Shown: one piece after another, positions 8,757-45,368 of the stretch
Layout of the letters: the number at the start of each line of letters is the position of its first letter
How positions within the stretch are numbered: the first letter of the stretch is position 1
IMG/VR virus record: IMGVR_UViG_3300035698_003405
Coordinates: 1-58,954 of that record
DNA from: a virus
Strand: one strand, 5' to 3'
DNA: 58,954 nt
Program-made: the position numbers and the translations under genes
The notes under the pieces: generated by a model
Told to the model about the DNA's origin: nothing
Database searches by the model: none
The model's input: the letters and a program-made list of their open reading frames with translations, nothing else

Positions 8757-8779
8757 TCTGTCCACCATTATAATTAAGT

Positions 8780-8809
8780 GGGGAGGCTTCTGTTGCAAGG
8801 TGCCTCCCC
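8780..8809 (-). other. Hairpin closing the tmRNA coding piece
   Basis: Perfect 8-bp stem GGGGAGGC (8802-8809) with GCCTCCCC (8780-8787), 19 bases after the tag stop codon. It marks the probable 3' end of the coding piece and may also work as a weak terminator (ACTTAATT follows). Confidence 0.7.
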
Positions 8810-8827
8810 GAACCCCGTCACCTATTT

Positions 8828-8872
8828 CTAGGCAGCAATGGCGATTGCGTCCGCCTGAACGTTGTCGTTTGC
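8828..8872 (-). other. tmRNA tag reading frame
   Basis: GCA resume codon, 14 sense codons giving ANDNVQADAIAIAA, then TAG. The ANDN start is typical of alphaproteobacterial tags; the AIAA end (rather than the common ALAA or AVAA) is still small and hydrophobic, as needed for ClpXP-type recognition. Confidence 0.93.
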
Positions 8873-8955
8873 ATTTACATGCGTGGCCCGCTACGTGGGT
8901 GCCATTCCGTGTCGCGCAAACAGCTTCTAAATCCCGTCGATCCTATTTCGCCCCC

Positions 8956-9094
8956 ACTAAAGAAAACACCCGGGAGGTCCCGTCGAGAGCAACCCCGAGA
9001 AACCTACTCACGTACCGCGACACCCGTATGATCACTCTGGAGTGTGGCAGGGGCCGTCCTGCTTCCTTAAAGGGAAGAGACGAGGTGTTCTCTT
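8956..9094 (-). other. Spacer removed between the tmRNA pieces
   Basis: 139 nt between the CCA end of the acceptor piece and the GGGGGCG start of the coding piece. In known permuted tmRNAs such a segment is cut out of the precursor. It contains a GGACGGCC stretch but no gene. Confidence 0.75.
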
Positions 9095-9283
9095 TGGTGG
9101 AGGCGGCGGGTACTGCCCCCGCGTCCGGTAATCCTTCGTCTATTTACGAGTTACGACAATAAATAAGCGAGCGCGTTACTTAACGATCCTGAACTTACTC
9201 ATAAACTTACGGTATTTCTAGATTACCGCTTGCACCAAGTTGTTCATTGCTGGTTAAAGCTGCTCGCCGTTAACCAATTAGGG

Positions 9284-9381
9284 GCCGCGCACCTTAAGGG
9301 TGGGCCTGTGGCAGGTAACCCACCGAAAACTCTATACTCATATCGGTGTTTCGATTACCTAAACCCCGTGGGGTGCGCGGC
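9284..9381 (-). other. Strong nested inverted repeats (unassigned structured RNA)
   Basis: GCCGCGCACC (9372-9381) pairs perfectly with GGTGCGCGGC (9284-9293). Nested inside are GGTAA/TTACC and CACCGA/TCGGTG arms. It starts at the stop codon of the protease gene and lies upstream of the tmRNA, so it may be a processing signal, a terminator or a separate RNA. The stretch 9181-9283 shows a smaller CGGTA/TACCG hairpin and no gene. Confidence 0.5.
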
Positions 9382-9812
9382 TAACGTATAGTAACGCGGG
9401 TTACAGTCCGGCGCAAGGGTAGATTGTCCAACACCCTTAGAGCGGTAAGAACATCACAGGATTGACGAAAGTTTCTATCGACGTTGCGCAACTTCATGTT
9501 GACCTCTCCTGTGAGGTTGCGCAGAAGCCCGCCGTTCCTGTGCCGGGTAGTGGTTAACTCGTGGTGGTAGTTCATGCCGTTAGCCCTAAGCAGGATATGC
9601 CCTATCTCGTGGGCTAACGTGATATCCGATCTCGCGTTGGGCAAGTTGTATAGGTAGATGGTATTGGACTTGGGGAGGGCGAGGCCATCGAAGGCATGAT
9701 GCGACCCCGCGCTAACCACATTGGGTACGATGACTGAGCCATCCGGGTGTGTAGGGGCTTCCACGTTTAATAAGGAAGCAACGCATACAACGATTTTAGC
9801 CAGTGCCAGCAT
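9381..9812 (-). CDS. Secreted or membrane-anchored zinc metalloprotease-like protein
   Basis: 143 aa from the ATG at 9812. The N-terminus (MLALAKIVVCVASLLNVEAP) looks like a signal peptide or anchor. The zincin motif HEIGH sits in ITLAHEIGHILLRANG, giving the two His ligands and the catalytic Glu; a third ligand is not obvious. This predicts proteolysis outside the cytoplasm or at the membrane; the substrate is unknown. The start overlaps the 3' end of the 9796-10278 gene. The ribosome-binding site is poor, so an upstream start (to 9866) cannot be excluded. Confidence 0.65.
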   Translation of the reverse strand: MLALAKIVVCVASLLNVEAPTHPDGSVIVPNVVSAGSHHAFDGLALPKSNTIYLYNLPNARSDITLAHEIGHILLRANGMNYHHELTTTRHRNGGLLRNLTGEVNMKLRNVDRNFRQSCDVLTALRVLDNLPLRRTVTRVTIR

Positions 9813-10278
9813 GAGACGGTACCCTATATAAATCGTTCGTTTTGCAGACGTTTGCAATGGACTCACGGAACGTCTCGACCGCTTTCATGTCGAATTCGAT
9901 TTCCGTAAGCTGGAATAATTGGTTTAAATGATTGCACAAGGAGTTTAAAGCAGTTTCGGGTGGACAGTGCAATGCCCCGCTGTCGAGGTATTCTGTCAGG
10001 GTGAGGTGTACCGCTATCAGCACTACGATGGGACGGTTAGACTTGCCACCGAGAATAGCGTTGGATACTCGCACAAGCCTACGATTGACCGTAACTGTGT
10101 CCTTGTAGTCAAGCCCCTCGCAGGCTTCAATGGCACAGAGTTCAACGTCCTTACGTAAAACCCTACCTACCTCGTGGCCGTGATCCGCCATGATCTCGGC
10201 GGCGGCGGATATCAGTTGAGGGAGTAGCACATGTTCAACGCGGCGGCGCATGGACAATCTGCCGAAGTAATACTTCAT
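9796..10278 (-). CDS. Hypothetical protein
   Basis: 160 aa, MKYYFGRLSMRRRVEHVLLP, almost wholly helical, with two Cys and a basic centre (VNRRLVRVSNAILGGKSNR). Palindrome copy 4 is translated near its C-terminus as ANVCK. Overlaps its upstream neighbour by 4 bp. No domain recognised. Confidence 0.6.
   Translation of the reverse strand: MKYYFGRLSMRRRVEHVLLPQLISAAAEIMADHGHEVGRVLRKDVELCAIEACEGLDYKDTVTVNRRLVRVSNAILGGKSNRPIVVLIAVHLTLTEYLDSGALHCPPETALNSLCNHLNQLFQLTEIEFDMKAVETFRESIANVCKTNDLYRVPSHAGTG
9842..9857 (-). repeat. Palindrome copy 4, inside a gene end
   Basis: TTGCAGACGTTTGCAA, 30 bases upstream of the protease start and inside the end of the 9796-10278 gene. A TATATA stretch follows on the minus strand, but at 21 bp rather than 17. 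Confidence 0.8.
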
Positions 10279-43142: not shown

Positions 43143-43934
43143 CTAATCCAGTATTCCATATGCTTCTAAAACTTGCTCGGCCAGCGGTAAATTAACCGGC
43201 CACTTAAATACCTCATGGTCGCGTACTTGCATAGCGTTACCCGGCAGATGGTCTAACAAAGTACGATGCATCTCCTCATCCGACATGTCTGAGTCCGCCA
43301 GCTTCTTAGCCATGCTGCGCCTGCCGCACGTCCTGCACTGTCCGCAAGGATCATAATATCCATTTACTGCTTGTGGGTTAAGGCAGGATATCGTCAGGTC
43401 AATAAGTCCTCTTGGTACGGTTCGGAATGCAGTTCCCTTTGTCCAATGCTCTATAGGGTTAACCATGAATGCGGGCCGTACTGTTTCTTTGCCCCGATAA
43501 ATCATACGGCGCTCAAATGCTCCGCCGCTTCCCATGAGATTTTGAAACGAGTCATACACATGGCAGATATCCGTATACATACGATCCGTGGCTATCCGAC
43601 CCGTCGCTAAGATACTAGCGTTCTGTAGGAATAGTTGATGCGTCCCTATCCACGCCACCCACATATGAGGGTTATACCATAACCTACCACTAACAGCCGG
43701 GAAATCGTGGCGACTGATACTATGAGTAAAAGGACGACAATTAGCCTCCAACCACTCAAGAACCATTCGAACGTGTACCTTTTCGGCGTCTGCGGCATGG
43801 GGTCTCTCCACTCTGTTATAATTAAAGTTGGCGTGATGTAAGTGTATCTCGTGTTTTACCGGCCATTGTTCCAGTAGATGATACGCCAGCGCCGTACTAT
43901 CCAAGCCCCCTGAGAGCATTACTACGATCTTCAT
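43143..43934 (-). CDS. QueC-like PP-loop ATPase, copy C
   Basis: 263 aa from the ATG at 43934 (ATGA overlap with the previous stop). PP-loop SGGLDST follows MKIVVML. A zinc site appears as SCLNP, then DPCGQCRTC, as in QueC. QueC makes 7-cyano-7-deazaguanine from carboxy-deazaguanine and ammonia with ATP. Relatives also act in antiphage systems and on proteins. A large insertion in the middle (MWVAWIGTHQLFLQNASILA) is shared loosely with copy B. Which substrate is used here is unknown. Confidence 0.75.
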   Translation of the reverse strand: MKIVVMLSGGLDSTALAYHLLEQWPVKHEIHLHHANFNYNRVERPHAADAEKVHVRMVLEWLEANCRPFTHSISRHDFPAVSGRLWYNPHMWVAWIGTHQLFLQNASILATGRIATDRMYTDICHVYDSFQNLMGSGGAFERRMIYRGKETVRPAFMVNPIEHWTKGTAFRTVPRGLIDLTISCLNPQAVNGYYDPCGQCRTCGRRSMAKKLADSDMSDEEMHRTLLDHLPGNAMQVRDHEVFKWPVNLPLAEQVLEAYGILD

Positions 43935-44698
43935 GAGGTGCGCTCCATTTCTTCGAAGTCGTTGGGCCAAGGCTTCCATTTGGGTTGATGTACCGGGCCA
44001 GATGGTGACGAGTCATTTACAGGGGTGCGACAAATTAGATCGTTTATCTCTTCCGTAGACATGCCTTGTGCTATGTACTCTCTAGCCTGCTTCCTACGTA
44101 GGCAGTTAATGCATTCGCCGCAAATTTCTACCACACCTGCATAGTTGTAGTTAGGACGCCAGCACGAAGATGTCATGTCTATAAGTTCATCCGGTAATTC
44201 AGCAAAGATATCGGCTTTTGTTTTACCTATGATAGGGGTTACCCAATGCCCCTTAAACGGCTTGCCATCTTTTGTGGTTCTTTTTGCGTTAGGAGCGCCA
44301 GCAGTCTCAGACACAAGGTCGAAGAATTGCCATGACCTATTAATATACTCAACGCCGCGTTCCGTAGTTTCCGATAGTATACGACCGGTAGCCATAACCT
44401 CTCCGAAACCGGCGTGTATCATAGACACACCCTGCATAGCGTACCATGCGTGGGCGTTAAGCTTTCGACCATTTAACTCGTGAAAGGATTCTGAGTATTC
44501 GAAGTCTCTAATATTTTCCCGGCACCAGTAGACGATAGCTCTTGTGGCGGTTTGCTCGATATCGCACCTATCCGATACAAAGTCAGGGTAGCTATATCGT
44601 AGGTGGTGAGCGTGAATATGGTGCGTGGTATTTTTTAGCAGATGCCATAGTAGGTAAGTGCTATCTAGTCCGCCCGATAGCATAGATATGATATACAT
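43931..44698 (-). CDS. QueC-like PP-loop ATPase, copy B
   Basis: 255 aa from the ATG at 44698, which overlaps the previous stop (TAATG). PP-loop SGGLDST in ISMLSGGLDSTYLLWHLL; zinc motif SCWRP...ICGECINC. Central segment GFGEVMATGRILSETTERG parallels that of copy C, so B and C are closer to each other than to A. Coupled to both neighbours. Substrate unknown. Confidence 0.75.
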   Translation of the reverse strand: MYIISMLSGGLDSTYLLWHLLKNTTHHIHAHHLRYSYPDFVSDRCDIEQTATRAIVYWCRENIRDFEYSESFHELNGRKLNAHAWYAMQGVSMIHAGFGEVMATGRILSETTERGVEYINRSWQFFDLVSETAGAPNAKRTTKDGKPFKGHWVTPIIGKTKADIFAELPDELIDMTSSCWRPNYNYAGVVEICGECINCLRRKQAREYIAQGMSTEEINDLICRTPVNDSSPSGPVHQPKWKPWPNDFEEMERTS

Positions 44699-45348
44699 TA
44701 AATCGTCCTGTGTGGTACCTTGAACTTGCTTAAGTCTTTGCAGGCAACGCATTCGCCGCAAGCCGTATATTTACCTTTATCAGACATAGGGTTACGGCAA
44801 CTCCATGTAATATCTTGCAGAGATTTAGGTAATTGTTCGTAGACTTTGCTTTTTGTGTGGTGGAGTATAGGGGTAAGCACCTTAGCGTTAGGTAATAACA
44901 GTTCGTATAGTTTGTCCCCTTGGTCCCACGCAGCACACAGGGCCGTGATATTGCTGCCCTGCCCGTGATATAGCCTACGTCCGTCCGCAACGCAAAAGAT
45001 GCCTTCAGAGAGTGCGTGGTTAGCTACCATGAGAGGCACCGTATACCATGTCGAAGCATGACTGCATGATATAAACATCCTGCTTTCGCTATACTGTATT
45101 TTACGTATGAGGTTTATTTCTTTGACGATTTCTCGACAAGCGAAGGCTTCTGCATTCTGCCTATTTTGCCAGTTTTCAAAGAATACATGGTGAGCAGAAA
45201 GTGGTACCTCTTTAGGTAGATCGCGGGCTAACTGGTATAGCACCAACGCGCTGTCCATGCCGCCAGATAAGGATACCATAACCCCGAATTCTTCGTTCAA
45301 TATACCGTTATCGGCTAATTCGGAAGTATCTAAATAATGTTTAAGCAT
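44698..45348 (-). CDS. QueC-like PP-loop ATPase, copy A
   Basis: 216 aa from the ATG at 45348; a GTG at 45360 is an alternative. The PP-loop reads SGGMDSA and the zinc motif SCRNP...ACGECVAC. Shorter than B and C, and near the usual QueC length (about 230). First of three, directly behind the adhesin-like gene and palindrome copy 14. Three tandem and diverged copies are unexpected for one synthase step. Confidence 0.72.
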   Translation of the reverse strand: MLKHYLDTSELADNGILNEEFGVMVSLSGGMDSALVLYQLARDLPKEVPLSAHHVFFENWQNRQNAEAFACREIVKEINLIRKIQYSESRMFISCSHASTWYTVPLMVANHALSEGIFCVADGRRLYHGQGSNITALCAAWDQGDKLYELLLPNAKVLTPILHHTKSKVYEQLPKSLQDITWSCRNPMSDKGKYTACGECVACKDLSKFKVPHRTI

Positions 45349-45352
45349 TTGT

Positions 45353-45368
45353 TTGCACACGTTTGCAA
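45353..45368 (-). repeat. Palindrome copy 14, intergenic
   Basis: TTGCACACGTTTGCAA between the adhesin-like stop (45369) and the first QueC-like start. No -10 box at 16-18 bp. Confidence 0.82.

Follow-up and report, generated by a model that had tools for sequence, protein, structure and literature searches.

Two-piece (permuted) tmRNAs are already known from phages. A 2022 survey of 18,146 phage genomes yielded 133 unique tmRNA structures, of which 53 were two-piece and mostly marine (PMC9004378), and the tmRNA database holds 79 phage sequences (PMC11915505). OM43 phage Melnitz, for which no integrase is reported, and Pelagibacter phage Mosig encode alphaproteobacterial-type two-piece tmRNAs associated with a glutamine riboswitch (PMC9004378). 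The tmRNA of mycobacteriophage DS6A lacks a tag frame and behaves as an inhibitor when expressed in E. coli (PMC11915505). The locus analyzed here is likewise a phage-encoded tmRNA, of the same two-piece type as those of Melnitz and Mosig, but Rfam places no glutamine riboswitch beside it and, unlike the DS6A gene, it has a tag frame. Since phage two-piece tmRNAs have been published, it is one more example rather than a new kind, and the novelty implied in a preliminary description of this DNA finds no support. What it adds is a well-supported viral tmRNA with its own tag in a group of phages, resembling Agrobacterium phage JP1 and Rhodobacter phage RcTiptonus, that had not been seen to carry one.

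The window, i.e., the whole stretch of DNA analyzed, is a 58,954-base IMG/VR virus record with 51% GC, a fragment of a phage genome. Its gene content identifies it as phage: PHROGs and Pfam matches reveal a PolA-like polymerase, DnaB, a helicase, and a lambda-like tail module, with a gene for a 2846-aa J-like protein at the end. The replication block is syntenic with those of JP1 (97 kb) and RcTiptonus (94 kb), whose RecA-like proteins share 45% and 43% identity, respectively, with that of the window. The tmRNA gene sits in a gap of 582 bases that separates two genes on its own strand; by PHROGs assignments and synteny, this is a co-directed gene run within the phage genome and not host flank. 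Searches near the gene for a sigma-70-like promoter and for a terminator found neither. Upstream, the 9381-9866 (-) gene specifies a HEIGH metallopeptidase motif and weakly matches the IrrE/ImmA-like family PF06114. Directly after its stop codon lies a strongly folded element, which matches nothing in Rfam and is absent from the other loci compared; whether it forms part of the tmRNA gene is uncertain.

A complete tmRNA gene of the alphaproteobacterial permuted type lies on the minus strand at 9158-8779, in the order acceptor piece, 139-nt spacer, coding piece (Table 1). The Infernal check proposed in the preliminary description gave a full-length match (1-355) to Rfam alpha_tmRNA RF01849 (148.2 bits, E 1.1e-40; cmscan, gathering 50), and tmRNA_permuted RF04321 also matched (121.6 bits, E 2.9e-23; gathering 47). 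ARAGORN independently called a permuted tmRNA at the same place with the identical tag, ANDNVQADAIAIAA. Sequence, covariance models, and context agree on a permuted two-piece phage tmRNA with its own tag, as that description had proposed. Its individual elements were borne out as well: an acceptor piece ending at 9095, a 7-bp acceptor stem joining CGCCTCC and GGGGGCG across the spacer (7/7 pairs), the tmRNA signature (GGATCGACGGG, within 8942-8932), and a tag frame ending in TAG. Compared with the extent of 8780-9180 that it gave, the gene extends farther in the 5' direction, with the first paired base at 9158 and the Rfam alignment running to 9224, to which an unpaired 5' lead of the acceptor piece may extend. 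The third acceptor pair, G3-U70 (G8953-U9101), is the alanine identity element of tmRNA. No mismatch marks fall on the acceptor, T-arm, or inter-piece H2 pairs in the alpha_tmRNA alignment.

Table 1. Features of the tmRNA locus (window coordinates) and ORFs nested in the tmRNA spacers of other viral contigs
Feature	Position	Strand	Basis, location, or carrier loci
Acceptor piece, paired part	9095..9158	-	Rfam alpha_tmRNA and tmRNA_permuted alignments, sequence
H2 strands TGTCG and GTAAATA	9158-9154 and 9147-9141	-	acceptor piece
T arm GCGGG/CCCGC, loop GGCAGTA	9122-9106	-	acceptor piece
Acceptor strand CGCCTCC	9105-9099	-	acceptor piece
Encoded ACCA	9098-9095	-	end of acceptor piece
Intervening segment, 139 nt	8956..9094	-	single closed hairpin domain fold
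Closing stem, 12 bp, AAGAGAACACCU / GGGUGUUUUCUU	9094-9083 / 8971-8960	-	register common to viral homologues, covarying
Coding piece, G1 to end of terminal hairpin	8779..8955	-	Rfam alpha_tmRNA, ARAGORN
5' acceptor strand GGGGGCG (8955-8949) and conserved AAATAGGATCGA	8937..8955	-	sequence, Rfam
Tag frame ANDNVQADAIAIAA	8828..8872	-	ARAGORN
H5-like hairpin CCUA-GAAA-UAGG around stop codon	8821..8832	-	read from sequence only
Terminal module	8780..8815	-	8-bp stem, 4/4 pseudoknot pairs
Strongly folded 101-nt element	9281..9381	-	MFE -45.8 kcal/mol, z -4.36
Nested ORF, 44 aa			L295, L301, L313, L332, L355, L385, L390, L401
Nested ORF, 73 aa			L288, L369, L379
Nested ORF, 77 aa			L175, L187, L189, L190, L197, L208, L378
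Nested ORF, 97 aa			L196
Nested ORF, 47 aa			L180, L193
Nested ORF, 45 aa			L183

The coding piece holds a resume codon (GCA at 8872), a tag running GCA..GCC (8872-8831) with the usual ..AA end, and an in-frame stop (TAG, 8830-8828). The AIAA end of the tag, pointed out in the preliminary description, is no special phage trait. It was also seen in 2 of the 68 alphaproteobacterial chromosomes sampled, as well as in three other viral contigs, so the tag is ordinary. A search of bacterial genomes with the tag pattern ANDNVQA returned 71 matches, mostly in Bradyrhizobium, that were not tmRNA genes. In the terminal module, GGGU (8815-8812) pairs with loop ACCU (8801-8798) within the hairpin GGGGAGGC (8809-8802) / GCCUCCCC (8787-8780). 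This module is present in 63/63 distinct chromosomal and 68/76 distinct viral tmRNAs examined, and its pseudoknot pairs change in a compensatory manner across homologues (GGGU/ACCU, GGGC/GCCU, GAGC/GCUU, GCGU/ACGU, and CGGU/ACCG).

The window gene thus shares with the alphaproteobacterial tmRNAs of RF01849 and RF04321 the permuted order, 7-bp acceptor stem, G3-U70 pair, CCA, GGAUCGAC, inter-piece H2, ANDN tag start, and terminal pseudoknot hairpin. It differs from the chromosomal copies in residing on a phage and in its spacer, 139 nt versus 5-104 nt (median 34) in 68 alphaproteobacterial chromosomes. Its 148 bits lie below most chromosomal scores (~240-316 bits among the best matches listed from 289 alphaproteobacterial genomes), in part because the post-tag segment of the consensus is missing (31 nt versus 66-72 in the Rfam consensus). 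The short form also occurs in 20/64 chromosomal copies; a long post-tag segment is therefore not defining.

Alpha-type permuted tmRNAs were also found in five isolate phages, namely Rhodobacter phages RcSimone-Hastad and RcRudolph, Mesorhizobium phage Cp1R7A-A1, and Erythrobacter phages XM05 and vB_EliS-L02. All five are unannotated in their records, i.e., tmRNAs of alphaproteobacterial phages go unnoticed there (5/5 checked). Their spacers (88-98 nt) are bounded, like that of the window, by a closing stem, and the tag of RcSimone-Hastad and RcRudolph, ANDNVRMDAQALAA, is related to ANDNVQADAIAIAA. The genes are nonetheless diverged from the window copy, BLAST aligning only short stretches, and their neighbors differ, i.e., a HIRAN protein, a topoisomerase, or a tRNA array. 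In XM05 (L085) and vB_EliS-L02 (L086), the tmRNA adjoins the tRNA array and a gene whose annotation reads HslV-family peptidase or proteasome subunit; its product might serve as protease partner for proteins bearing the tag. Beyond isolates, two exact-pattern scans recovered the conserved tmRNA signature in 35 and at least 120 IMG/VR contigs, phage genes having been checked in part of them. Questions of host range and tag exchange are testable in the culturable Rhodobacter phages with homologues.

No tmRNA was found in JP1, RcTiptonus, three related Rhizobium phages, or four closer IMG/VR relatives (90-102 kb). The latter were identified with a three-phage alignment of the 426-aa protein encoded next to the tmRNA gene; a single-sequence search with this protein found zero IMG/VR relatives. 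Since these relatives do without a tmRNA, it is dispensable in the group and was probably gained in the lineage of the window. The nearest of the copies aligned are chromosomal tmRNAs with the short post-tag segment (~78% identity), which, in a sample that amounts to no phylogeny, suggests capture from an alphaproteobacterial host. Such a history raises the prospect of a neutral passenger, namely an ssrA that the phage copied from a host, e.g., when an element inserted in that gene excised imprecisely; ssrA is a known integration site (PMC11915505, PMC9004378). Both the gain implied by the tmRNA-less relatives and the top scores of the chromosomal copies fit this idea, but we deem it unlikely. 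The window gene is complete rather than a fragment and sits inside a co-directed gene run, and no integrase was seen among the window proteins checked (part of the ORFs). Moreover, the pseudoknot and every pair of the acceptor stem, T arm, and H2 are still intact at ~78% identity, whereas drift would have broken them.

Complete anatomy and pairings that covary in relatives instead count in favor of function, and the window gene is very probably a functional phage-encoded two-piece tmRNA. On the other side of the balance are the comparatively low Rfam score, the negative search for a nearby sigma-70-like promoter, and the dispensability of the gene in the group. Most likely, it would behave like an ordinary tmRNA that relies on SmpB, alanyl-tRNA synthetase (AlaRS), and proteases of the host. 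A search for smpB, as suggested in the preliminary description, gave no match to PF01668 in the 58,954-base fragment, nor was one present in the five tmRNA-bearing isolates. None of these sequences thus encodes a self-sufficient trans-translation system with its own SmpB, and host SmpB is therefore presumably used. We envisage that one precursor would be transcribed together with the surrounding phage genes, and that the spacer hairpin would keep the two halves of the acceptor stem together during cleavage at G1 and behind CCA by the tRNA-processing enzymes of the host. The mature pieces would remain paired via H2, be charged by host AlaRS through G3-U70, and be delivered to stalled ribosomes by host SmpB and EF-Tu. 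The nascent chain would then gain A-ANDNVQADAIAIAA and be destroyed by host proteases. Processing, charging, delivery, and tagging are modeled here on the Caulobacter-type system. The phage most likely keeps the tmRNA to maintain the supply of ribosomes and amino acids in the infected cell while mRNAs are being broken and host genes shut off. The purposes put forward in the preliminary description, a tag swap and the freeing of ribosomes, are likewise conjecture. Alternatively, the RNA might be a decoy that occupies SmpB, AlaRS, or the ribosome in competition with host tmRNA and so blocks trans-translation, for which the tag-less DS6A tmRNA, reported to inhibit endogenous tmRNA, offers a precedent (PMC11915505). 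This is highly improbable because the window tag frame, unlike that of DS6A, is intact, with resume codon, stop, and an ordinary ...IAA end.

The spacer sets viral copies apart from chromosomal ones, although only by degree. Phage spacers measure 55-293 nt (median 93) in 27 distinct copies, window included. A larger viral set has a median of 86.5 nt, with 74% of spacers reaching at least 50 nt, compared to 21% of chromosomal copies. These length tests ignore relatedness, the viral contigs were picked by exact patterns, and the chromosomal sample covers one class and mostly the better-scoring part of the list. As viral spacers reach 388 nt, that of the window is no length outlier. Viral spacers open and close with a 12-bp stem in fixed register, adjoining CCA on one side and ending four bases before G1 on the other. 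On average, 10.3/12 positions pair in 81 distinct viral stems versus 6.3/12 in 46 chromosomal ones; some chromosomal spacers do have such a stem, hence the difference of degree. Across 33 distinct viral sequences chosen from 78 and including the window, the covariation score of the stem is 0.87, as opposed to 0.25 after shuffling and at most 0.24 when slid. In this alignment, 90% of cells pair and 125 cells have changed on both sides, the signal coming from copies of other phages and not from close relatives of the window phage. Near-identical tmRNAs also occur with different spacer contents.

The window's own closing stem pairs at 12/12 positions and is followed by a 4-nt linker (UAGU) before G1. 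Within the spacer, whose fold is only moderately more stable than that of shuffled sequence (z about -2), no credible ORF was found: the longest frame, which runs for 66 codons up to the TAG of GGGGGCGAAATAG, opens within the acceptor piece and lacks a plausible start. ARAGORN and Rfam detected no tRNA or known RNA in or near it, and it matched none of the other loci compared.

Several marine viral spacers, in turn, hold ORFs, mostly of membrane type, preceded by a Shine-Dalgarno-like site (Table 1). A 44-aa single-helix membrane-type protein recurs in 8 contigs with five different tags. Its variable columns distribute 11/7/28 over the three codon positions, its pooled pN/pS is 0.17 (pooled pairs not being independent), and its Shine-Dalgarno-like AAAGGAGA falls in the closing stem. 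A 73-aa protein in 3 contigs has a pN/pS of 0.16, again from nonindependent pooled pairs, and two variants of a 77-aa protein, present in 7 contigs, differ by 12/5/31 according to codon position. The substitution patterns of the 44- and 73-aa families show purifying selection at the sequence level. Phage genes, e.g., for ssDNA-binding protein, PhoH, and cytidyltransferase, accompany the nested ORFs on two carrier contigs. PHROGs, Pfam, and isolate phages yielded no convincing homologues of the nested proteins, and we found no mention of spacer-nested genes in tmRNA in the literature searched.

Judged from sequence comparison, selection thus acts on the spacer of viral copies as a stem, and protein genes can be housed in it. 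More tentatively, the spacer might be a phage-specific module in which the covarying stem lengthens the precursor's acceptor stem and surrounds exchangeable cargo. This would sometimes be a small membrane-protein gene whose expression depends on tmRNA processing; in the window, the cargo would consist of RNA only. It is hardly credible that the long structured spacer is the main product and the tmRNA its processing scaffold, for despite the length of viral spacers and the selected protein genes that some marine phages keep there, the window spacer has no credible ORF, folds only moderately better than shuffled, and is unmatched in the other loci compared. The spacer stem and the nested genes make tmRNA processing in phages a testable question.

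Elsewhere in the window, three adjacent ORFs (43143-45360, minus strand) each match part of QueC (PF06508), with overlapping ends, and represent a split, duplicated, or frameshifted QueC-like gene, perhaps belonging to a 7-deazaguanine pathway.
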